Assembly (NCBI GenBank): GCA_025354615.1
Contig: JANXMO010000548.1
Location: forward strand, 1-13,193
Source: Burkholderiales bacterium
Lineage (GTDB): Bacteria > Pseudomonadota > Gammaproteobacteria > Burkholderiales > Burkholderiaceae_C
Direction: 5' to 3'
Length of the DNA: 13,193 nucleotides
Below are positions 2,171 through 12,883 of the stretch, piece by piece; position 1 is the stretch's first letter; each line of letters starts with the position of its first letter. The translations under genes and the position numbers were made by a program. The notes beneath the pieces are model-generated. The model made no database searches, had not been told where the DNA came from, and saw nothing but the letters and a program-made list of their open reading frames with translations.

Positions 2171-2458
2171 ATGTTGAATAAATTTCACACGACAAGCAAA
2201 ACCCGCCAACTTGGTCAAGGCATGACTGAATACATCATTATCGTGGCGCTGATTGCCATTGCAGCGATTGCAACCTACACCTATTTCGGCTCCGCCATCC
2301 GCAATCAAACTGCCGGTATTGCGCAAGAAATTTCAGGTCAACAATCCACTGCTGCTATCACAGACGCACAAGCTGCAGCCAACAGTGCACGGACAGAGGC
2401 CAAGAATACCAAAGGACTTGCAACCTACAACAACGCCAATGCCAATGCCGGCAATTAA
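2171..2458 (+). CDS. flp: Flp-type (type IVc) major pilin prepilin
   Basis: This is a 95-residue prepilin, the likely structural subunit of the Tad pilus fibre. The short basic leader ends LGQGMTEY. Prepilin peptidase is expected to cut after Gly15, leaving an 80-residue mature protein with Glu at +5 and Tyr at +6, the Flp hallmark. A hydrophobic helix follows at once (IIIVALIAIAAIATYTYFG), ending in the YFG typical of Flp pilins. The remaining roughly 45 residues are Ala/Asn/Thr rich (for example NANANAGN), longer and more polar than in minimal Flp pilins, and probably form the exposed fibre surface. It is the first gene of the operon, with a good AAGGA ribosome binding site and a hairpin just after its stop. 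That layout fits an abundantly expressed pilin. Confidence 0.9.
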   Translation: MLNKFHTTSKTRQLGQGMTEYIIIVALIAIAAIATYTYFGSAIRNQTAGIAQEISGQQSTAAITDAQAAANSARTEAKNTKGLATYNNANANAGN

Positions 2459-2572: not shown

Positions 2573-4042
2573 ATGAATCACGTTATTAAACGTAAGGCCT
2601 TTATTTCAATAAAGTCAAGGCAACAACAACATTCTTCTTATGCTCTACAACGTGGGCAAGTGCTTGTTTTTGGCCTTTTCTTGATGATCATAGGGGCGGC
2701 AATCCTGTTTTTTGTTTTCAATACAGGACAACTGGTCAAAAACAAAACGAAACTGGTCAATACAGCGGACGCTGCAGCTTATAGCGCAGGCTTGATCACG
2801 GCGAGAACCATGAATGCGGCCTCGTACGTGAACCGCGCCATGGTGGCGAATTCAATTGCGATTGCGCAAATCGTCAGCCTTCAATCGTGGGTTGATTTCG
2901 TCAGCGCACAAGGTAACTATATTACCCAACCGAATAACGATATTTTGACAAAAACAACTCCAGGGATTGTTGACGCAACAGCCTTGAATACCGTCAAATA
3001 TGCTGATTATAACAATGCGTTTGCAAGCGCAACCATTGCAAATTATGAGCAATTCTATTCAAAATACAAAGATTCAAAGTTCTTTGAAAACAACGCAGTC
3101 ATCTCAGATCAAAAAATCCATTTTGCGCTGAAAAACATACAGCTTTCTTATTTTCTCATGTTGCGGTTGGCGCGGGAGGAAATCATCCGCGACGTCATCA
3201 AGGCGAACTACGAAAACACCTCAACGGTCGGTTTTGAAATAAATCCATTGATCGATGGATTGGGGCCTGCTTTTGACGAAGAAGGTTTTCAAAATGGCTT
3301 GGGATATTTTGTGCAAACCTTCAATGATACAAATCGCGGCCGATTGCTTGACGTTATCGACGCAGCACAGAAAATTGACGGATTTACTAATCACTCGGCC
3401 CAATGGGCGCAAACCGCCGCCATTCCAGGCACATGCCCCGGGAAATTCGATTTCATCGAGCGCCGTCGGGGAACCGCCCACCGGATAGAAAGTGAATTAC
3501 AACCCGGCTTCATATCGGTTCCCAGCGATCAAATTGGATATGCACGCTGGACGGCATCGGATGAACTGGTTGAAAACTATTATGACCCAGCATCAGGATG
3601 CACGTTGCAGCAGCGTGTGCTGGCTCAAGGCAATACCAGTTGGGGCAATGATCCAGGACAATTCGCCGGACTTCCACCATTTTTCGACCTTAGCCAGGAC
3701 CGCCAGCGAGAGACAGATCCGCGTCTTAAATTTGGCATTCGGCTTTTTTTGGATAAAACGCAGCTGTCCGTTTCAGGCGGCACTTCGCAAATTCAAAATA
3801 GTTCACCTGACAGCTATTTCGGGCTGAATCGTTATGCTGTTTCTACGCCAGGAAAAGACAATTCAATGGAAGCAGTCGGTGTCAGTCAAGTGTATTTTCA
3901 AAGAGGTTCACTGAATTCAAGTTACGGCGCAGGCTTGGGTACTCCAACGGAATCAGCAAGCTTGTTCAGCCCTTATTGGCATGCTCGTATGGCAGATACC
4001 ACTGAAGCGGTATTGATTTCGCGGGAAAGACAGGGCCCATGA
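2573..4042 (+). CDS. TadG-related pilus assembly protein (TadE/G-like N-terminus)
   Basis: This 489-residue protein has a basic N-terminus, then RGQVLVFG (from Arg27) and a single membrane helix (about 30-50). The segment GQLVKNKTKLVNTADAAAYSAG (51-73, with ADAAAYS at 65-71) follows. This arrangement is typical of TadG-related proteins of Tad loci, which are thought to act at the inner membrane or periplasm as minor pilus-assembly components. Position +5 after Gly28 is Phe rather than Glu, so prepilin-peptidase cleavage is doubtful and the helix may stay as an anchor. The roughly 430-residue extracytoplasmic part has exactly two cysteines (288 and 343), which could form a disulfide. I chose the ATG at 2573; a GTG three codons upstream (2564) is the alternative. 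The stop overlaps the next start as ATGA. AT-rich codon use differs from the cpaF end of the operon. Confidence 0.75.
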   Translation: MNHVIKRKAFISIKSRQQQHSSYALQRGQVLVFGLFLMIIGAAILFFVFNTGQLVKNKTKLVNTADAAAYSAGLITARTMNAASYVNRAMVANSIAIAQIVSLQSWVDFVSAQGNYITQPNNDILTKTTPGIVDATALNTVKYADYNNAFASATIANYEQFYSKYKDSKFFENNAVISDQKIHFALKNIQLSYFLMLRLAREEIIRDVIKANYENTSTVGFEINPLIDGLGPAFDEEGFQNGLGYFVQTFNDTNRGRLLDVIDAAQKIDGFTNHSAQWAQTAAIPGTCPGKFDFIERRRGTAHRIESELQPGFISVPSDQIGYARWTASDELVENYYDPASGCTLQQRVLAQGNTSWGNDPGQFAGLPPFFDLSQDRQRETDPRLKFGIRLFLDKTQLSVSGGTSQIQNSSPDSYFGLNRYAVSTPGKDNSMEAVGVSQVYFQRGSLNSSYGAGLGTPTESASLFSPYWHARMADTTEAVLISRERQGP

Positions 4043-4899
4043 AAATGGACCCACGTCCTGAAAAAGTGGCTTTGAATGCACCCACGGTCAGACAGCGCGG
4101 GCAAGCACTGTCGGAATTTATTTTGCTTGTTGTTGGCGTCGGAATTCCGCTGCTGTTGTTGATACCACTGATTGCCAAATACCAGGATATTCAACATGCC
4201 ACACAAATGGCAAGTCGTTACCTGGCATTTGAAGCCACCACTCAAAGCAATGATGAAGCACAATGGAAACTGCCCCAACAGCTGGCGAACGAAGTTCGTT
4301 CCCGGTTTTTCGGCAATCCCGCTGAGAACATACGAAGTGATGTTATATCCAGCTCAGCAAGCTCAGAACCTTTTTGGACAAACCCACTAGGGAGCGGCAT
4401 GATTGCGTCCCCCGAGGTCGACGTCACAGTGTCCACGAACAAAGCAGGTACAGGTTCGGGTGTGGCGGACGGGTTTGATGCAGCCAGTGATAAAAACCCT
4501 TTTTACGGTGGCAGTCCAGATATTCCAACCATTATGGATTACACCGGACTACCTGCCCGTGGCATCTACACTGCCAATATCAAAGTCAGGTTGGCCAACA
4601 TGCCGTTCTCACTCGGCTTCGGCGGGCCGGTTTACGCCCCGTTTGACAATATAGGAATTTTCATTACAGCGCAAACGGGTACTTTGACGGCATCATGGGC
4701 TGCGTCTGGGCCGCAGGAAGTCGTGCGTCGTTTGAGCAACCCGGATTTGATTCCCAGCTTGCAACTTCAAGCTGATTTCGCACCGGGTAGCGCCAATGCT
4801 GATATTATTTCGGCTGTTGAGTTGGAAAATATTCCACCTCCGAAAATAGGGCAACTTGCACCTTTCATTGATATCGTTCCGCGTGACAGATTGCATTGA
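4039..4899 (+). CDS. TadE-like pseudopilin
   Basis: This 286-residue protein has a 21-residue leader ending QRG, followed by QALSEF. Cleavage after Gly21 would leave Glu at +5 and Phe at +6, the TadE/TadF pseudopilin pattern. A hydrophobic helix follows (ILLVVGVGIPLLLLIPLIA), then KYQDIQHATQMASRYLAFEAT. This resembles the post-helix region of TadE proteins, in which an amphipathic helix continues from the membrane segment. The rest is an extracytoplasmic domain without cysteine, larger than in many TadE proteins. Such proteins are processed by the Tad prepilin peptidase and needed for pilus biogenesis, possibly as minor or initiating subunits. It is coupled to the preceding gene by ATGA. The next gene starts 16 nt after its stop. 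Confidence 0.8.
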   Translation: MKMDPRPEKVALNAPTVRQRGQALSEFILLVVGVGIPLLLLIPLIAKYQDIQHATQMASRYLAFEATTQSNDEAQWKLPQQLANEVRSRFFGNPAENIRSDVISSSASSEPFWTNPLGSGMIASPEVDVTVSTNKAGTGSGVADGFDAASDKNPFYGGSPDIPTIMDYTGLPARGIYTANIKVRLANMPFSLGFGGPVYAPFDNIGIFITAQTGTLTASWAASGPQEVVRRLSNPDLIPSLQLQADFAPGSANADIISAVELENIPPPKIGQLAPFIDIVPRDRLH

Positions 4900-4915: not shown

Positions 4916-5695
4916 ATGGAATCGATTTTTTTTTCACGTTATTTTACAGAAAATAAAATACTCAGCACAGTTGCTGTTAAAAATAAAATTTGTTTTTTTC
5001 TAAAACGATTTTTAATCGCTTTCTGCATTGGTTTTCAAACAAGCCAATGCCATGCCGCCATGCCGGTGGTAAATTTACCGCCTCATGCCATATTTCATGA
5101 ACTGGGACAACCTGTTGTCGTCAATGGTCTGCAGATTCAAGCCAGTGGTTTCAGCAGTTTAGAAAAACCCGAAAAAGTTACCGAATGGTTTAGGTCGCAA
5201 CTCGGCACACCTTTGAGCCAGAGGGCGCTGGGTCGGCGTATGGTGCTTGGCCGCTTGATTAATGGTTATTATGTAACAGTTCAAATTGAAGCGACGGCAC
5301 CTGGAACGAAGGGATTGATTGGTATTTCCAATCTTGAAAGTGCGGCTCGGGAACGGCCGCAATATGAAAACTACCGGCGTGAATTTAGCGACCGTTTACC
5401 GAAAGACTCGCGCATCATCAACCATATTTCATCGAATGATTCAGGCCGATCGGCTAGCCAGTGGTTGTATACAAATAGCTACGGCGTTCAAGCCAATGAA
5501 ATCCATATTGTTGAAATGTTCAAGCGTGAAGGGTTGGCGATGCAATATCGAAACGTCATCGATGAAAAAGGCGGGAGCGTGATCCTTCAATTTGGCAGCA
5601 AAGGACGTGAAGTTTCTGCATCCATACTGCCAGCCGCCGACAAAGCAACCTCTGTCTACATTATTTCAACGTTATTCGACAATAAAAAACCATGA
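4916..5695 (+). CDS. Unrecognised exported protein in the tad operon
   Basis: I do not recognise the family of this 259-residue protein. With the ATG at 4916 it has a long N-region, the basic stretch FLKRF (28-32), a short hydrophobic core (LIAFCIGF) and a CHA|AM-like signal peptidase I site near residue 47. A periplasmic location is therefore likely. The mature part is mixed alpha/beta in look. It has two segments of similar plan: VTEWFRSQLG with VTVQIEA after it, and IHIVEMFKREGL with VILQFGS after it. These might be two related subdomains. TTG (4856, 4868) or GTG (4883) starts would lengthen an already long signal sequence, so I prefer the ATG despite its poor ribosome binding site. A run of nine T lies at codons 4-7. 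Its stop overlaps the start of the mini-prepilin gene, and its position between pseudopilin genes suggests a role in pilus assembly. Confidence 0.6.
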   Translation: MESIFFSRYFTENKILSTVAVKNKICFFLKRFLIAFCIGFQTSQCHAAMPVVNLPPHAIFHELGQPVVVNGLQIQASGFSSLEKPEKVTEWFRSQLGTPLSQRALGRRMVLGRLINGYYVTVQIEATAPGTKGLIGISNLESAARERPQYENYRREFSDRLPKDSRIINHISSNDSGRSASQWLYTNSYGVQANEIHIVEMFKREGLAMQYRNVIDEKGGSVILQFGSKGREVSASILPAADKATSVYIISTLFDNKKP

Positions 5696-5901
5696 GTTCA
5701 GCGCTAGAACCCAATGGTTTTGCCCGGTCTTATATGCCCTATTGGCAATATGGTCAAGGCATGACCGAATATCTCGTTTTATTGGCTTTCTTTTCATTGG
5801 CACTTTTAAGCCTCAATAACCAAATTTCCTGGCACAACATCGTTGACGCGCTGGTTCTTGCTTATCGCCGTCTGAGTTTTGCCCTTTCTGTTGCAACTTG
5901 A
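5692..5901 (+). CDS. Mini class III prepilin-like protein (Flp paralogue candidate)
   Basis: This tiny protein of 69 residues carries YGQGMTEY. Cleavage after Gly21 would leave a mature peptide of 48 residues with Glu at +5 and Tyr at +6, as in Flp. A hydrophobic helix follows (LVLLAFFSLALLSL) and then only about 27 residues. The coding bases around the cleavage site (5751-5771) match those of flp (2212-2232) at 20 of 21 positions, the single difference being a synonymous third base. It overlaps the preceding gene by ATGA and the 5' extension of cpaB lies within or just after it. The class III signal, the coupling and the flp-like DNA make it a real gene despite its size. It may be a minor pilin, a tip or initiating subunit, or a decaying flp copy. 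No usual Tad component of this shape is known to me. Confidence 0.7.
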   Translation: MSSALEPNGFARSYMPYWQYGQGMTEYLVLLAFFSLALLSLNNQISWHNIVDALVLAYRRLSFALSVAT

Positions 5902-5941: not shown

Positions 5942-6970
5942 GTGAATCCTCAAAAACCTCCTGTTTTTTCGACAAGCGCCGGCAACGGCGTCCGGGCAAA
6001 AAAGACCTGGATTGTTTTAGCAATCGCATTGCTGTTCGGTACTGCCTCTGCTATTTTCAGCTTGATTTATCTGAAACAGGAAAAAGCAGCTTTACATGCA
6101 GATGCAGGCCGCACGACTGGAGGGCAGACGGTCACTTTGGTGGTCGCCAAACGTGGGTTGCGTCGCGGAGAAGCGGTCACCAAGGAAACAGCAGCGGTAC
6201 GCGAAATACCGGTTGCTTTTACACATTCCCTCGCAATTGATGCGTCGCAATTTGATCAATATGAAGGTCATTTGCTGGCTTACGCTGTCAAACCCGGTGA
6301 ACTGATATTGAAAAGCTCGCTGCAAGGCGGCGCGACATCTTTTTCGTCCCGAGTTGAGCTGGGCCGTCGGGCCGTGACGATGTCGGTTGATGAAATCAGT
6401 TCTATTTCAGGTTTGCTTGAGCCCGGAGATTTGATTGACCTGATAGCCACGATTGACCAGGGTGGGAGGCGTGGCCCTCCCCTGCTGGTGCTTCAAGGCG
6501 TTGCGGTCATGGCCACAGGCCAGCGTTCGGTGAACGATCCACGCACGGGCGAAGCACGGCGCTACACCACCGTAACGCTCAATACAACACCCGACCAGGC
6601 TAGGAATGTGATTACGGCGCGTGAATTGGGTAAGTTGACGGCGTTATTGCGCAATCCGGCTGACAAGCCGCTGAACAATGACATGGAAGTTGATGTGAGT
6701 GCTTTTCTCAAAGCACCTGTGGCGTCGTTGCCAATCAGCCGTCCGGCAGTGCGTGCATCAAGCACCAACACGGTCGACATTTTGTACGGAACGGGTGGCG
6801 GAAACAGCAGCGGCAGCAGCAGTACAGTGGCAACCAGTGCTGTTGGCTCCCCCCGGACTCCAACGGGCTTTACGCCAAACGAGGACGCGGGTGCCATACG
6901 AAGTTCTGGCTCAGTGGCTGATTCTTTCCGTTCGCCCTCTTCTTCCCAGATGGCGTCGCCCGGGCGTTGA
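5942..6970 (+). CDS. cpaB: Flp pilus assembly protein CpaB (RcpC)
   Basis: This 342-residue protein has one N-terminal membrane helix (about 22-44, TWIVLAIALLFGTASAIF) and an SAF-type domain: VTLVVAKRGLRRGEAVT, then a region with YAVKPGELILKSSL. The following domain (RRAVTMSVDEISSISGLLEPGDLIDL) is typical of CpaB/RcpC. CpaB is thought to sit in the periplasm and support the secretin channel. The last 75 or so residues are Ser/Gly/Thr rich and probably disordered. The start is uncertain. I chose the GTG at 5942 because MNPQKPPV... gives an ordinary short cytoplasmic N-terminus, but it lacks a clear ribosome binding site. A TTG at 5879, inside the preceding gene, would add 21 residues. It is followed directly by cpaC. 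Confidence 0.88.
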   Translation: MNPQKPPVFSTSAGNGVRAKKTWIVLAIALLFGTASAIFSLIYLKQEKAALHADAGRTTGGQTVTLVVAKRGLRRGEAVTKETAAVREIPVAFTHSLAIDASQFDQYEGHLLAYAVKPGELILKSSLQGGATSFSSRVELGRRAVTMSVDEISSISGLLEPGDLIDLIATIDQGGRRGPPLLVLQGVAVMATGQRSVNDPRTGEARRYTTVTLNTTPDQARNVITARELGKLTALLRNPADKPLNNDMEVDVSAFLKAPVASLPISRPAVRASSTNTVDILYGTGGGNSSGSSSTVATSAVGSPRTPTGFTPNEDAGAIRSSGSVADSFRSPSSSQMASPGR

Positions 6971-7012
6971 TTGCAAGTACGTTGCACCCCACTGAGCCAA
7001 AAATTTGTACTT

Positions 7013-9130
7013 ATGAAACCGCTTTCATCTTCTTTTTTCAGGGTCCAACTCCGTCTTGCCTGTTCTTGGACAGTCAGGACCGCATTTGTCGCGCTGTGTT
7101 TGGTGGTGTTGAATCTTCATCAAACAGCAATGGCAAAAGAACTTACGGCGGCAGTGGCGGTTGCAACACCGCCGTTGGAAGGGGTAAAGCCTGTTTTGAA
7201 TGCCGCGGCAGCGGCCTCAGCTGATCTTCAAGACGCACTTGATGCGCCGTTGCTGAAAACAAAGCCGGAAACTGAAATTTTTCTGTTTGTTGGGGAAACC
7301 CGCGTTTTGCCGGCGCCGGGCTTGCGCCGAATTGCGATTGGCAGTGGCAAGGTATTGAGTGCCAATGCGATTGATGGCCGTGAAGTACTGCTGTTTGCCA
7401 ATGCGTCGGGTGTGTCGTCGCTGGTTTTATGGGATGCCGCCGGGCGTGCAAAAAACATCAAAGTCACCGTGGGCCTGGGCGACGTTGGTCGATCGGCCCG
7501 TGAAATCGCCACTTTTCTCTCCGGTATTGCCAATGCCAAAACAGCGATCATCGGCGACAAAGTGATTGTTGAAGGCGATTCGTTGGGCGACCGTGACTTG
7601 GCCAAGATTGATGAGTTGGCCAAGCGCTACCCGCAAATTGTCAATTTCACCAGCCGACTGGGCTGGGAAAAAATGGTGATGATGGATGTCAAGGTGGTCG
7701 AGTTTCCGACCAGCCTGTTGCGCGAGTTGGGATTGAAATGGACGTCGAACGGCGGCGCCGCAGTTGGTGGCATCTGGGCACCCGGGCGGCGTGGCAATCA
7801 ACCGGGATTGAGTATTTCGATTCCGACCGGGCAAGGCGCACCGTTGCCGATCACCAATGCCGATGGCACGGCCAACGGTATTCCCTTGCCGCGAGGACTC
7901 AATGTTCTCAGCGCATTGAATCTGGGCATCTCTGCCACCTTGAATCTACTGGTTACGGAAGGCAAGGCCAGTGTTTTGGCGGAGCCTCAATTGTCGGCAC
8001 GCAATGGTTCGAAAGCCACTTTTCTGGCGGGCGGTGAATACCCGTATACCGTGTCGTCCATTGGCGGGCAAACGGTGCTGTTCAAGGCTTATGGCATCAA
8101 ATTGGAGATTGTTCCGCAGGTTGATCGCAATGGCATGGTTCGCGCGGTAATTGATGCGGAAGTCAGCGCCATTGATCCCTCGATCAGCACCAGTGCGGGG
8201 CCTGCCCTGTCGACGCGTAAAACCAGTACCGAATTCAATGTGCAGGCTGGTGAGACGATGGTTCTGGCTGGATTACTGTCTCGCCGCACTGCAACCACGA
8301 TCGACAAGCTGCCGTTCCTGGGCGACATCCCGGTCTTGGGCGCCCTGTTTCGTTCGAAACGCTATCAAAATGACGAAACCGAGTTGATTGTGTTTGTCAC
8401 GCCGTCGGTGGTGGATGCCCATACCTCTTCACTGAGCGCGCGCGTAGATCAAGCAACGCAGCGGTTGGAAAGCGAACTCGGGCGTCCGCCTTATCTTCCT
8501 GCTGTGAGTGACAGCACACCAGCGGCCGCCCCCATTTCATTGTCAAAAGAGGAGCGCCAACCCACCGCGGCCGCTGTGACGCCGGGGCAACTGTCGGTTC
8601 CAGAACAAACCCGGCGCAATACAGTACCTGTCATTGCCACCCCTGCCTTGCCGGTGAAGCCGGCCACAGCACTCACCGTAAAGGCAAGCGCTGCAACCGC
8701 TGCAGCCTCTTCGACAACTGCGCAAGTCGACCTTCCCTCCACAGCAGTTTCGCTACAAGCGGCAGCCATACCGTCGCCCGTGAGAGAGCCCTTGCCTGCC
8801 ACTGCCCAGCCCAGCGCAGCGTTATCCACAGCACGGCCCAATCCGCCTGCATCACAAGCCAGCAAACCAGCGCTTGCAGACACGCGAAGGTCCGTACTTC
8901 CCAGCATTCCAATTGAGACGGAAGGCGATTTGGCACCAGGCCTTTATGCCATCAACCAGTACAACCTGCCCCTGCGGACGCAGCCGGATCTCAATTCGCC
9001 CGTCATGCGCTATCTGCCACTCAACACGCAAATCGAGGTCTTGGCGCAGCCAAGGCGCGGCAACTTTGTTGCCGTGCGCATCAACGAACAAATGGGCTGG
9101 GCGCTGGCCCGCTGGTTGCGTCCCATTTGA
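7013..9130 (+). CDS. cpaC: CpaC/RcpA-type secretin with C-terminal SH3-like domain
   Basis: This 705-residue outer-membrane channel subunit lets the Flp fibre exit. A signal peptide ends TAMA|KE. The pilus-secretin N-terminal domain spans about 87-152 (EIFLFVGETRVLPAPGL), followed by a BON-like segment (REIATFLSGIANAK...). The secretin domain runs about 221-466, with VLAEPQLSARNGSKATFLAG, GETMVLAGLL and LPFLGDIPVLGALFRS. The usual CpaC would stop soon after VFVTPSVV. Here an Ala/Pro/Thr/Ser-rich linker of about 175 residues leads to a bacterial SH3-like domain (643-705) with LPLRTQPDLNSPVMRYLP and MGWALARWL. That domain may bind peptidoglycan or a partner protein. I chose the ATG at 7013; a TTG at 6971, next to the cpaB stop, would add 14 residues before the signal peptide. 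The FHA-ATPase gene follows after 16 nt. Confidence 0.93.
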   Translation: MKPLSSSFFRVQLRLACSWTVRTAFVALCLVVLNLHQTAMAKELTAAVAVATPPLEGVKPVLNAAAAASADLQDALDAPLLKTKPETEIFLFVGETRVLPAPGLRRIAIGSGKVLSANAIDGREVLLFANASGVSSLVLWDAAGRAKNIKVTVGLGDVGRSAREIATFLSGIANAKTAIIGDKVIVEGDSLGDRDLAKIDELAKRYPQIVNFTSRLGWEKMVMMDVKVVEFPTSLLRELGLKWTSNGGAAVGGIWAPGRRGNQPGLSISIPTGQGAPLPITNADGTANGIPLPRGLNVLSALNLGISATLNLLVTEGKASVLAEPQLSARNGSKATFLAGGEYPYTVSSIGGQTVLFKAYGIKLEIVPQVDRNGMVRAVIDAEVSAIDPSISTSAGPALSTRKTSTEFNVQAGETMVLAGLLSRRTATTIDKLPFLGDIPVLGALFRSKRYQNDETELIVFVTPSVVDAHTSSLSARVDQATQRLESELGRPPYLPAVSDSTPAAAPISLSKEERQPTAAAVTPGQLSVPEQTRRNTVPVIATPALPVKPATALTVKASAATAAASSTTAQVDLPSTAVSLQAAAIPSPVREPLPATAQPSAALSTARPNPPASQASKPALADTRRSVLPSIPIETEGDLAPGLYAINQYNLPLRTQPDLNSPVMRYLPLNTQIEVLAQPRRGNFVAVRINEQMGWALARWLRPI

Positions 9131-9146: not shown

Positions 9147-11066
9147 ATGATGCAAATCGAAGTCATTCGTCAAGACGACTCAAGCGAGCTGGTCGAAGCG
9201 CCAGACGAATGCATGATCGGCAAGGGCTTTGACTGCGATATTCGCCTCAATACGTGGCGTATCGGCCGGCAGCATGCCCGTATTTTCAACTCGCCATCGG
9301 GCGTGTTCGTTGAAGATCTGGGTGCGTTTGGCGGCGTTCTGGTCAATGGACAACGCATTACGCTGCAGCAGGGCCCGCTGAGTACGTTGGACCAGATTTC
9401 AATTGGCCCTTATCGCTTGCGCGTGGCCAGCTCGCAGGCAGCAGCACCAGGGCGCGCGCCGGTGGACGGCGGCGGTATCACGCAGGGCCGTCTGTGGACA
9501 CGGCGTGCCAGCGATCATGTTCACGGCCATCAATTGACGCGTGACGATATCAAAGGCGCAGTGGAACATGGCCGGCGTGCAGCAGACACGGCATTGCGCC
9601 AATCCGGTGCCGATGTCTCAGCGCTGGCCGCTGCACAAAGGGCTGCCCCGCGAACCGCAGTGCCTGCGGTTCGGCAAACCGCCGCGTTGACCGATCCGCA
9701 AGCCCAGGCTTTGCAAGGGCTGGAGTTCGAATGGCGCAAACGGCTGCATGGCCTGTTACTGGAAGCCATGGACTTGAGGCGCCGTGACATTTCCACCATG
9801 ACGGACGAGCGGCTTCGCAATGAGGCCTCGCTGCTGATGGACAACGTCATGCAATCGATCGCCAGCGAACTGCCACCGCAACTCAGCCCGGTTCTGCTGC
9901 GCAAACAGGTGATTGACGAGGCGGTAGGACTCGGGCCGTTGGAGGAATTGCTGGCAGACGACAGCATCAGCGAAATCATGGTCAACCGGTTCGACAGCAT
10001 TTTTGTCGAGCGTCGCGGCCAATTGCATGCCTACCCGTCCGGCTTCACCAGTGAGCGCGCCGTCATCAGCGTGATCGAGCGCATCGTGGCGCCGCTTGGT
10101 CGCCATATCGATGAGTCGACACCCATGGTGGACGCGCGCTTGAAAGACGGCTCGCGCGTCAACGCCATCATTCCGCCATTGGCCATTCATGGCGCAGCCG
10201 TCACCATCCGAAAATTCCCAAAACACAAACTGACCAGTGACGATCTGGTGCGTCTTGAATCCATCAGCCCCGAGATGCTTGAATTTCTCCGGATATGTGT
10301 GGAGTCCCGCAAAAACATCGTCATTTCCGGCGGAACGGGGTCAGGCAAAACCAGCTTGCTCAACATCCTGTCGAACTTTATTCCCGATGGCGAACGCATC
10401 ATCACCGTGGAAGATGCGGCCGAGCTCAGCTTGAAACACGCTCACATCATCAGCCTGGAAGCGCGCCCCGCAAACGCCGAAGGCAAGGGCAAGGTGACGA
10501 TTCGCGATCTGGTCAAAAACGTGCTGCGCATGCGACCGGACCGTGTGGTGATCGGCGAGTGCCGCGGCGCCGAATCGCTGGACATGCTGCAGGCCATGAA
10601 CACGGGGCATGAAGGCTCGCTCACCACCCTGCATGCCAATGCCCCCCGCGATGCGATGGCACGGCTCGAAACCATGGTGTTGATGGCCGGTGCCGACTTG
10701 CCGCTCTCGGCCATCCGCGAGCAAATTGCCAGCGCCGTCCACATCATCGTGCAGCAAACCCGGTTTGCCTGCGGCAGCCGCGTCGTGACCAACATCACCG
10801 AGCTCAGCGGCATTGAAAGCGGGCGATTTCAATTGCAGGACCTGTTTGTTTTCAAACACCGCGGCTACCACCCGGATAACCATCCCCAGGCTCGCAAAGT
10901 CAACGGCCACTTCTCCGGCTGTGACGCCGTCCCCGGCTTTTACGAGGAACTGGCCTTGCAGGGCAACCCGTTGAACCTGCGGATTTTCGTGCCGGTCGGC
11001 GAAGACGGCTTGCCAGTTCATTCTTCAAGCGGCTATACGGAGCAGCGCTCAGAGGCATTGCAATGA
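9147..11066 (+). CDS. cpaF: FHA-domain CpaF/TadA pilus assembly ATPase
   Basis: This 639-residue secretion ATPase powers Flp assembly at the inner membrane with TadB and TadC. Its core has Walker A GGTGSGKT (395-402, Lys401), Walker B VVIGECRG (Glu471) and the His box GHEGSLTTLHAN (His488, His496), plus the upstream LGPLEELLADDSISEIMVN segment typical of CpaF. The N-terminus carries an added FHA fold (about 22-95): IGKGFDCDIRL, IGRQHARI, DLGAFGGVLVNG. Three phosphothreonine-contact positions are changed: Arg to Lys26, Ser to Gly40 and Asn to Gly62. His43 is kept. An Ala-rich linker of about 100 residues joins the parts. AAAGG (9133-9137) is the ribosome binding site for the ATGATG start. Its stop overlaps tadB as ATGA. 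No TadZ/CpaE gene precedes it, unlike in many tad loci. Confidence 0.95.
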   Translation: MMQIEVIRQDDSSELVEAPDECMIGKGFDCDIRLNTWRIGRQHARIFNSPSGVFVEDLGAFGGVLVNGQRITLQQGPLSTLDQISIGPYRLRVASSQAAAPGRAPVDGGGITQGRLWTRRASDHVHGHQLTRDDIKGAVEHGRRAADTALRQSGADVSALAAAQRAAPRTAVPAVRQTAALTDPQAQALQGLEFEWRKRLHGLLLEAMDLRRRDISTMTDERLRNEASLLMDNVMQSIASELPPQLSPVLLRKQVIDEAVGLGPLEELLADDSISEIMVNRFDSIFVERRGQLHAYPSGFTSERAVISVIERIVAPLGRHIDESTPMVDARLKDGSRVNAIIPPLAIHGAAVTIRKFPKHKLTSDDLVRLESISPEMLEFLRICVESRKNIVISGGTGSGKTSLLNILSNFIPDGERIITVEDAAELSLKHAHIISLEARPANAEGKGKVTIRDLVKNVLRMRPDRVVIGECRGAESLDMLQAMNTGHEGSLTTLHANAPRDAMARLETMVLMAGADLPLSAIREQIASAVHIIVQQTRFACGSRVVTNITELSGIESGRFQLQDLFVFKHRGYHPDNHPQARKVNGHFSGCDAVPGFYEELALQGNPLNLRIFVPVGEDGLPVHSSSGYTEQRSEALQ

Positions 11067-11926
11067 ACACGATGTGGCTGTGGCTCATCGGGGCAGGCGC
11101 CACTGCCGCATTGGCGGCAGGCATATTGGTCTGGTGGGCTTTTGATGCCGCGCCTGACGCCCTACAACACTATCGGGTTCGATTTACCCGTTCCACCATT
11201 GCCCGTACCAGCGGCTTGTTTCTGGCGTTTGATCCGGGCACTGCCTTTGGAATCAACATCATGGTCATCCTGGCTGGCACGGCAATCACCTGGTGGGCCA
11301 GTGGCAGTGCGGTGGTGGCGTTGCTCTGCGCAGCCATCATCGCTTCCCTGCCCCGCTTGTTGTTTGCGAAGCTGCGCCGGCGCCGCATGGTGGCATTCGA
11401 CGCCCAATTGCCTGATGCACTGATGATGCTGGCCGGTGGCATGCGGGCTGGCCTGAGCCTGACCGGCGCACTTCAAAATTTGTTGGAAGAAGCCGCCAGT
11501 CCGCTGCGCCAGGAATTTGGTCTCATCCTTCAAGAGTACCGTTTGGGCTTGCCACTGGAAAGCGCTCTGCAAAATCTCACCCGCAGAATGAATACGCGGA
11601 CGACGGTTCTGGTGGTGGCCGCCATGCGGGTGGCCCACGAAACCGGTGGCGGACTTGCAGAAGCGCTGGAACGCATTTCCTCGACGATTCGCCGCCAATT
11701 GCAAATGGAAGCCAAGACGCGCGCCTTGACGTCACAGGGGCGGCTTCAAGGTTGGGTCGTGGGCGCGATGCCGATCGCGCTGCTGCTCGTATTGAATTTT
11801 GTCGACCCCCCTGCGATGGCTTTGATGTGGCATACCCCTCTGGGCTGGTTTGCCATGGCCATCATCGCCTTTCTTGAGCTTTGCGGGGCCTTGCTGATTC
11901 GCCGAATCGTGTCGATCGAGACGTAG
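11063..11926 (+). CDS. tadB: Flp pilus assembly protein TadB
   Basis: This 287-residue polytopic inner-membrane protein is one of the two GspF-like platform proteins of Tad systems. It has an N-terminal helix (5-26), a hydrophobic pair near 66-92, and the cytoplasmic T2SSF domain (about 109-235) with LPDALMMLAGGMRAGLSLTG and VAAMRVAHETGGGLAEALE. Two C-terminal helices follow (about 233-250 and 262-282). The platform is thought to turn with or transmit motion from the TadA ATPase to extract pilins from the membrane. Its ATG overlaps the ATPase stop, which fits production in fixed ratio. Length is near the usual 300 or so residues, and nothing is missing. Confidence 0.93.
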   Translation: MNTMWLWLIGAGATAALAAGILVWWAFDAAPDALQHYRVRFTRSTIARTSGLFLAFDPGTAFGINIMVILAGTAITWWASGSAVVALLCAAIIASLPRLLFAKLRRRRMVAFDAQLPDALMMLAGGMRAGLSLTGALQNLLEEAASPLRQEFGLILQEYRLGLPLESALQNLTRRMNTRTTVLVVAAMRVAHETGGGLAEALERISSTIRRQLQMEAKTRALTSQGRLQGWVVGAMPIALLLVLNFVDPPAMALMWHTPLGWFAMAIIAFLELCGALLIRRIVSIET

Positions 11927-11953: not shown

Positions 11954-12883
11954 ATGGCCGAACTGATTTCTGTCAATCGATGGCTGCCCGTAGTGGCATC
12001 CCTTTGCGCCGGTGCGCTGGTTTCCTTGCTGGTGTGGGGCGGTTTTCGCCTATTGCCTGTCATGCGCAACAGCCAACGGGAGTTCATGGATCCGCTGCCG
12101 CTGGCTTTCAGCTTGGTCTGGTGGCCGGTTCAAGCCATCGAACGTTTTTTTGAAGGGTTCCAAACAGCACGCTACAAGGCGCGCTTGAATGTGCAATTGC
12201 GCTTGGCGGGTCTTGAGTACACGCTGATGCCGGCGCAATTCGTTGCAACGCGCGCCATTTATGCCGCGGCACTGGGCCTGTTGCCATTTCTATGGCGGGT
12301 GGTGGCCACGGTAACGGGGCTTGAAACCGGTGGCCTGAGATTCACGGCAAACCCTTGGTCCATTCTCATTTTTTCCTTGTTGGGGTGGTATCTGCCATGG
12401 ATCTGGTTGAAAGACCGGATAAAAAAGCGGCGCCGGGAGTTTGTGTCTGCACTGCCTTTCTTTCTTGACATCATCACTTTGTGTATTGAAGCGGGCCTGA
12501 ATTTTCAAGGCGCCATGACGCAAGCGGTCGCCAAAGCGCCCAGAGGCTATTTGCGTGATGAATTTCAACGCGTGCTGCGTGATATCCGGGCCGGAAAGCC
12601 ACGCTCCGATGCCTTGCGCGACCTGTCGGAGCGGGTGCAGGACACAGCGGTTTCGAGTTTCACCACCTGCGTCATTCAGGCCGAACGCATGGGCATGACG
12701 CTGGCGCCGATGTTGCGCGCGCAAGGAGAACAACGGCTCAACGAACGTTTCACGAGAGCCGAGCGTTTGTCGCTGGAAGCGCCCGTCAAAATGCTGTTTC
12801 CCTTGATCGTATGTATCTTCCCCTGCACATTCATCGTGCTGCTTTTTCCGGTGTTCGTGCGCCTGATGGGCATGAAGCTGTGA
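11954..12883 (+). CDS. tadC: Flp pilus assembly protein TadC
   Basis: This 309-residue polytopic inner-membrane protein is the second GspF-like platform component and partner of TadB. It has an N-terminal helix (about 10-34), two central hydrophobic segments (about 100-150), and the T2SSF domain from RRREFVSALPFFLDIITLCIEAGLNFQGA to QAERMGMTLAPMLRAQGEQ. A C-terminal helix pair follows (MLFPLIVCIFPCTFIVLLFPVFV). The conserved LPFFLDII...EAGL and AERxGxxLAPxLR segments are typical of TadC. It begins 27 nt after the tadB stop with no strong ribosome binding site. It ends in a GTGA overlap with the DUF192 gene. Confidence 0.93.
   Translation: MAELISVNRWLPVVASLCAGALVSLLVWGGFRLLPVMRNSQREFMDPLPLAFSLVWWPVQAIERFFEGFQTARYKARLNVQLRLAGLEYTLMPAQFVATRAIYAAALGLLPFLWRVVATVTGLETGGLRFTANPWSILIFSLLGWYLPWIWLKDRIKKRRREFVSALPFFLDIITLCIEAGLNFQGAMTQAVAKAPRGYLRDEFQRVLRDIRAGKPRSDALRDLSERVQDTAVSSFTTCVIQAERMGMTLAPMLRAQGEQRLNERFTRAERLSLEAPVKMLFPLIVCIFPCTFIVLLFPVFVRLMGMKL

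Follow-up and report, generated by a model that had tools for sequence, protein, structure and literature searches.

The locus described here raises the question of what a reading frame of 69 codons does in the middle of a Tad pilus operon, where it lies between the gene of an exported protein and cpaB. The window, that is, the whole stretch of DNA analysed (13,193 nucleotides), is one whole contig from the draft genome of a Burkholderiales bacterium (697 contigs, 80.85% complete), and it carries the operon on its + strand, from flp through tadC, as judged from open reading frames (ORFs) and matches to Pfam and TIGR profiles. Our analysis puts the probability at about 0.5 that the product of the small frame, which we call the mini-pilin, is a dedicated minor Flp that would prime the fibre or dock its tip. 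The features on which the argument turns are the following.

5692..5901, + strand: mini-pilin gene, ATG start, 69 codons plus stop; homologues found
5734, + strand: alternative ATG start of the mini-pilin, which would give a 6-residue leader before G21
5752..5772, + strand: prepilin motif G^QGMTEY (G21, E26, Y27), residues 21-27; predicted cleavage after 5754
5755..5814, + strand: hydrophobic helix 1 of the mini-pilin, residues 22-41, in the AlphaFold2 model
5830..5895, + strand: helix 2 of the mini-pilin, residues 47-68, amphipathic, bearing the family motif Y58..S62-F63-A64-L65-S66
4916..5695, + strand: exported partner protein, an ORF of 259 codons as read here; signal peptide plus tandem domains
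5692..5695, + strand: ATGA stop/start overlap of partner and mini-pilin (the partner's TGA is 5693-5695)

A preliminary description of this DNA had read the frame as an ORF with a GQGMTEY cleavage motif, a hydrophobic helix and about 27 residues after it; all of this holds, the residues after the helix numbering 28, and the sequence likewise bears out a 48-residue mature form (if cut after G21) and the ATGA coupling to the exported protein. The protein has the plan of an Flp-type prepilin: a short leader, the cleavage motif and, directly after GQGMTEY, the hydrophobic stretch LVLLAFFSLALLSL. In an AlphaFold2 model of moderate confidence (mean predicted local distance difference test (pLDDT) 73.5, predicted template modelling score (pTM) 0.38) the mature protein of 48 residues is small and wholly helical, with a helix at 22-41, a break, and a second helix at 47-68. 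The second helix is amphipathic, with a mean moment of 0.43 as compared with 0.25 for long and 0.34 for classical Flps, the stretches compared having been picked by position.

Among 45 aligned members of the family E26 is invariant and M1, G21, Y27 and S66 are each kept in at least 90%. Towards the C-terminus the members share a motif, Y/F..F/Y-S/T-F/Y-a-l-S-l-P, in which S is found in 41 of the 45, the following L in 29 and the P after it in 37; the commoner ending is SLP, and that of the window is SVAT. The rest varies considerably: 3 columns are invariant among 19 sequences, and within the first alignment the exact heptapeptide GQGMTEY is peculiar to the window, the 18 other members having, for example, GQAMTEY, GQASVEY or GFATIEY. 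Mature lengths are mostly 45-58 residues. In other orders of the class the protein continues past the motif as a tail, to a mature length of up to about 120 residues, and two loci of the order (L090, L094) have about 40 extra residues; such tails may possibly provide added tip functions. Some of the long-tailed relatives are rich in D, E and P (the set comprises L097, L099, L100, L104-L106, L108, L109, L111, L112, L121, L090 and L094).

The libraries searched hold no name for this family. Pfam (up to E=1, Flp_Fap included) and NCBIfam gave no family for the mini-pilin of the window; 4 of 19 members match Flp_Fap (PF04964) at E up to 0.1, the best at 0.0015, and the window's long Flp also falls below the cut-off of that family (16 versus 32.2 bits). 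Comparison by sequence with solved structures gave no credible match, and Foldseek returned no chain for the model. A homologue search with the single protein recovered the window's own protein only. Of 1784 candidates in a profile search, 114 proteins matched at E up to 0.001; where their names can be read, these are 'hypothetical protein', 'Flp pilus assembly pilin Flp' or, in two rows, UPF0333; relatives by sequence only occur in Actimicrobium, Thauera and Thiobacter, where they are labelled hypothetical or uncharacterised protein. Judged by motif and size, the mini-pilin is an Flp-type prepilin, and its position and partner set it out as a family of its own.

Is the frame a gene? All genome searches used the mini-pilin alone as query (the single protein, then a three-row profile, then larger profiles), and its neighbours are therefore independent evidence. 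An initial scan of 60 relatives, with only the single protein as query, found syntenic relatives in two other genera. The three-row profile gave full-length matches (E < 1e-5) in 19 of 399 genomes of the family, its own included, and a twentieth (G125, E 0.003) has the same neighbours as the other module genomes. Larger profiles, run against the order (399 genomes, best 30 loci fetched) and the class (369 genomes), added 28 and 29 further loci that were read, for 77 in all; three of the class loci (L119, L120, L124) proved to be ordinary flp genes next to a TadG-like one and were excluded, leaving 74. The partner family lies upstream in 71 of these 74, cpaB downstream in 72, and both are present in 70, the window included. 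Departures from the pattern are an apparently broken frame of the partner, which is itself present, in L053, a contig edge in L112 and the lack of cpaB in L092. With L125 left out, the carriers belong to 31 families of one class, 10 of them within the order and 21 beyond it, and the 10 matching genomes listed by a search of 349 genomes of the phylum all lie inside that class (the share of the 349 outside it is not stated).

Selection gives the same answer. Eight pairs of loci were analysed, of which L090/L094 was dropped (the slice fell on the C-terminal extension), as was L067/L070 (saturated); in the six usable pairs omega (Ka/Ks) of the mini-pilin is 0.05-0.36, indicating purifying selection, though with about 60 codons per pair the values are rough, the pairs are partly dependent (three of them combine one set of three loci) and in one, L076/L079, identity is as low as 52%. 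The same test gave values of similar order for the partner (0.13-0.25) and cpaB (0.08-0.28). For Ka/Ks of the window itself no close relative was found, and the values come from pairs among the other loci. No stop occurs inside the matched frame in the module matches listed. A chance ORF is ruled out by the conserved place together with selection: the frame 5692-5901 is a real gene. It had been proposed that such a gene should be conserved between the exported protein and cpaB, with Ka/Ks to match, and that absence of the frame, stops or frameshifts in related loci would refute it; on both counts the outcome favoured the gene.

To what kind of operon does the gene belong? The draw of 399 family genomes lists 100 cpaB places in 91 genomes, and 20 of the places have the module of partner and mini-pilin; 90 of the places were read, and of the 10 unread 5 fall below the family cut-off. 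Of the 20 module genomes, 15 show the full order flp, tadG-like, tadE-like, partner, mini-pilin, cpaB, cpaC, tadA, tadB, tadC; in four more a contig end interrupts it, and in the last no tadE-like gene was detected. In the 70 other cpaB loci partner, mini-pilin and long Flp were all without a match, as read with at most about 1.5 kilobases (kb) of flank in 30 (L128-L157) and up to 4 kb upstream in 40 (L158-L197, some cut by contig ends). A classical Flp, of the EEGATAIEYGLIAG type, is visible in 42 of these 70. The stretches read from 18 of the 20 module genomes contain the long Flp, of the GQGMTEYIIIVALIA type; in the remaining two the flp stretch is cut off, and one of them, G125, has a long Flp on another contig (L036). 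Since the long Flp was found in 18 of 20 genomes with the module and in 0 of 70 loci without it, the module is tied to one Tad sub-type, of which, among the cpaB loci examined, it is a fixed part. The remark that the small pilin and its partner are not a standard Tad component thus fits the classical loci (0/70) and fails here, where the module is regular.

Is the mini-pilin a reduced copy of the neighbouring Flp, as the preliminary description had it? The DNA at 2212-2232 and 5751-5771 is indeed identical at 20 of 21 bases. However, GQGMTEY encodings simulated with the codon usage of the window agree on average at 17.6 of 21 bases, 5.7% of 200,000 pairs agree at 20 or more (P=0.057), and identity between the flp and mini-pilin DNA fades on both sides of the motif. 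Given the shared heptapeptide the match is nearly expected; it says little more than that, and is hardly evidence of a recent common origin. As to size, classical Flps from other Tad loci of the family have mature lengths of 39-60 residues (n=44, chosen by motif with a length limit of 35-70 residues) and long Flps of 73-82 (n=17); 48 residues is an ordinary size for an Flp, and the long protein here is the neighbouring Flp. The mini-pilin profile scores its own members at 68.1 bits, long Flps at a median of 17.3 and classical Flps at 9.8, and hhalign gives E values of 3.5e-5 for mini-pilin and long Flp, 1.5e-4 for mini-pilin and classical Flp and 1.5e-6 for long and classical Flp. The mini-pilin family therefore stands apart from both, since the two Flps are nearer each other and score far below its own members; its profile is somewhat nearer the long than the classical Flp, so common descent with the former is possible. 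This much speaks for 'reduced Flp paralogue'; size and DNA match lend no support to reduction, and a reduced copy of the neighbouring Flp is not established.

What, then, might the mini-pilin do? It resembles the Flp/Fap major pilins (PF04964) in its leader, its G^xxxxEY motif, its hydrophobic helix and its mature size, but has its own C-terminal motif and its own place before cpaB, and lacks a Pfam match. In the accessible parts of two papers, TadE, TadF and TadG (CpaJ, CpaK, CpaL) are minor pilins thought to form the tip (PMC12075869, PMC12607857); like them the mini-pilin is an extra prepilin in the same operon, but their globular domain is absent from its 69 residues, about 28 of which follow helix 1. 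The closest parallel comes from Myxococcus xanthus. As described in the accessible part of PMC12075869, KilK and KilO are Flp minor ('adapter') pilins of the Kil Tad-like pilus and are encoded in tip gene clusters, KilO being fully helical with 59 residues; in a mutant that lacks both, the 97-residue major pilin KilP fails to polymerise, and modelling puts the two at the junction of tip and shaft. Here, too, a short Flp stands beside a longer major one (69 and 95 residues, as against 59 for KilO and 97 for KilP) and beside genes of tip pilins. The locus already has genes for Flp and for TadG-like and TadE-like proteins, so that the mini-pilin is an extra prepilin, as KilK and KilO are, and the division of the window's pilins into one long Flp, large TadG- and TadE-like proteins and one very short Flp leads to the minor-Flp reading. 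The earlier suggestion of a further prepilin, whose gene is coupled to that of the exported protein and which is probably a minor, initiating or tip pilin, gains support from the conserved module and from this precedent.

The minor Flp might work as follows. A peptidase of the Tad or PilD type would cut the prepilin behind G21, and the hydrophobic helix of the product would sit in the inner membrane among the helices of Flp and the TadE/TadG-like pilins, from where it may enter the fibre end in small amounts. The second helix, with its conserved Y..hS[FY]ahS face, would dock either the TadG/TadE-like tip or the periplasmic partner, and this docking would let polymerisation start, the mini-pilin then working as the Myxococcus KilK/KilO adapters do. 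The exported tandem-domain protein would be its periplasmic assembly partner, presumably in contact with it.

Several observations weigh against this role. One locus, L125, has neither partner nor cpaB; L206 and L207 (two genomes of one family of the class, from the phylum search) are small prepilin-like frames that adjoin cpaB without a match to the partner, and are either outliers or a different small Flp. In the class set the motif E is replaced in two members (S in L110, D in L116). The model of the mini-pilin is of middling confidence. The likeness to KilK and KilO is drawn from their description, and the accessible part of PMC12075869 mentions no exported partner for them. Data on expression, cleavage or phenotype were not found for any member of the family. 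Across 65 loci, the partial distance correlation of mini-pilin and partner given cpaB is 0.185 (reached by 0 of 2000 permutations) and that of mini-pilin and cpaB given the partner is 0.309; the former being the smaller, nothing suggests that mini-pilin and partner form an especially close pair. Finally, a second shaft subunit and a CpaB-linked membrane peptide each keep a small share of the probability, as set out below.

The partner's signal peptide, judged by eye, lies somewhere in residues 23-49 and is followed by two tandem alpha/beta domains (about 52-140 and 160-257), one of them possibly DcrB/Mog1-like. Comparison by sequence with solved structures gave no credible match, Pfam gave weak scattered matches in single members only, and a plasmid collection held no match to the Ideonella-type partner; named relatives are those of Ideonella paludis (L126) and a Chromatiales metagenome-assembled genome (L127). 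Of 47 loci from the family and the order, 26 allow a 4-base overlap with the mini-pilin gene, start codons having been chosen to favour ATGA wherever possible. One genome of the order (G453) has two copies of the module, at 5177119 (L208) and 5912485 (L077), each with partner, mini-pilin and cpaB. In L025:974-1501 / L053 (genome G263) the frame of the partner appears broken, its N- and C-terminal parts lying in different frames, through sequencing error or mutation.

A bolder reading, which we hold with a good deal less confidence than the preferred one, is a split or chaperoned pilin: a prepilin reduced to two helices would work with a separate exported tandem DcrB/Mog1-like protein as its head, or as its membrane-mimicking holder, and the pair would be the obligate initiator of this Tad sub-type throughout the class. 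A split minor pilin, with the mini-pilin as membrane or docking helix and the partner as globular head in trans, the pair replacing a TadF-type pilin, is unlikely. The near-constant adjacency of the two genes (71/74) and their possible overlap speak for it, and the partner looks soluble and is exported, with no pilin helix beyond the presumed signal peptide; however, no natural fusion (a frame matching both profiles) occurs in the loci read, no minor pilin is evidently missing where TadG- and TadE-like proteins are present and six loci have a second TadE-like one, the fold seems closer to DcrB/Mog1 than to a pilin head, and the distance coupling of the pair is weak.

A shade more doubtful is that the mini-pilin is a further structural Flp of the shaft, which might in some conditions even be the main pilin. 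The mature length of 48 residues lies within the range of the 44 motif-selected ordinary Flps (39-60), but the mini-pilin diverges fast (the 3 invariant columns in 19 sequences) where the long Flp is much more constant, its gene lies deep in the operon behind coupled genes, and the long C-terminal tails of several members would suit a fibre end better than a close-packed shaft. Scarcely different in its low likelihood is a partner that acts as periplasmic chaperone or holdase of the mini-pilin, comparable to the Eag chaperones, which cradle transmembrane helices with sheets of the same fold; from DcrB, PA1624 and EagT6 (Mog1-PsbP-like fold) the partner differs in having two domains in tandem. 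Least probable is that the mini-pilin, prepilin-like only in looks and never in the fibre, regulates or stabilises the CpaB ring as a small membrane protein, which would suit cpaB following in 72 of 74 loci and the higher mini-pilin/cpaB correlation, but the motif residues G, E and Y are retained (of 45 members all have the E, and at least 90% have the G and the Y), a sign that a prepilin peptidase processes the protein.

The rest of the operon, with the second TadE-like genes of relatives, is as follows.

2171..2458, + strand: long Flp, presumed major pilin, 95 residues, 80 after cleavage
2573..4042, + strand: TadG-like minor pilin (Pfam Tad, PF13400)
4039..4899, + strand: TadE-like prepilin with RGQALSEF motif; no Pfam match, named from motif and place
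5942..6970, + strand: cpaB/rcpC, alignment ring protein (TIGR03177 and PF16976 over cut-off)
6971..9130, + strand: cpaC/rcpA secretin (PF00263)
9147..11066, + strand: tadA/cpaF motor ATPase with N-terminal FHA domain (profile matches)
11063..11926, + strand: tadB platform protein (PF00482)
11954..12883, + strand: tadC platform protein (PF00482)
L047:16468-17001, L048:310-1551, L050:15499-17001, L051:2-754, L061:9926-11878, L062:15751-16518: second TadE-like genes

These second TadE-like prepilin genes, named by motif, lie 3' of tadC in six relatives; the contig of the window ends earlier. No tadZ/cpaE gene lies between cpaC and tadA, as the gap there is 16 bases. The TadA/CpaF ATPase of the window bears its FHA domain at the N-terminus, and the CpaC secretin has an SH3-like stretch at residues 665-716 (PF08239, 25.6 bits, slightly short of the cut-off of 27). 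The RNA of 2460-2575, between flp and the tadG-like gene, is predicted to fold with a z of -3.97, and 0 of 200 shuffles were equally stable. A predicted hairpin, AAATACTGCGCACCAGTATTT, lies directly 3' of flp, and a predicted long-range stem, CCCCACTTAC/GTAAGTGGGG, would mask the tadG start region. Such hairpins could separate the dose of Flp from that of the minor pilins and, together with translational coupling, are in keeping with pilins encoded further downstream being made in smaller amounts than Flp. In the window's own genome (81% complete) one prepilin peptidase (PF01478, 290 residues) was found, at L198:1372-2244 on contig C457, which we take to be PilD-like, the gene after it presumably being coaE; no TadV was seen in this incomplete genome.

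The start of Tad pilus polymerisation and the junction of shaft and tip are still poorly known, and in the portion of the literature covered the Myxococcus proteins are the only small Flp adapters met with genetics. In the portions of open-licence PubMed Central text consulted we found no description of the partner/mini-pilin module, which adds to such adapters a periplasmic partner whose fold we have not seen linked to Tad pili in the same part of the literature. As a conserved module of two genes marking one Tad sub-type in 31 families, it offers a compact target in ordinary laboratory bacteria, and our results suggest that genes annotated 'hypothetical protein' at the place of the mini-pilin would be better annotated as minor prepilins.
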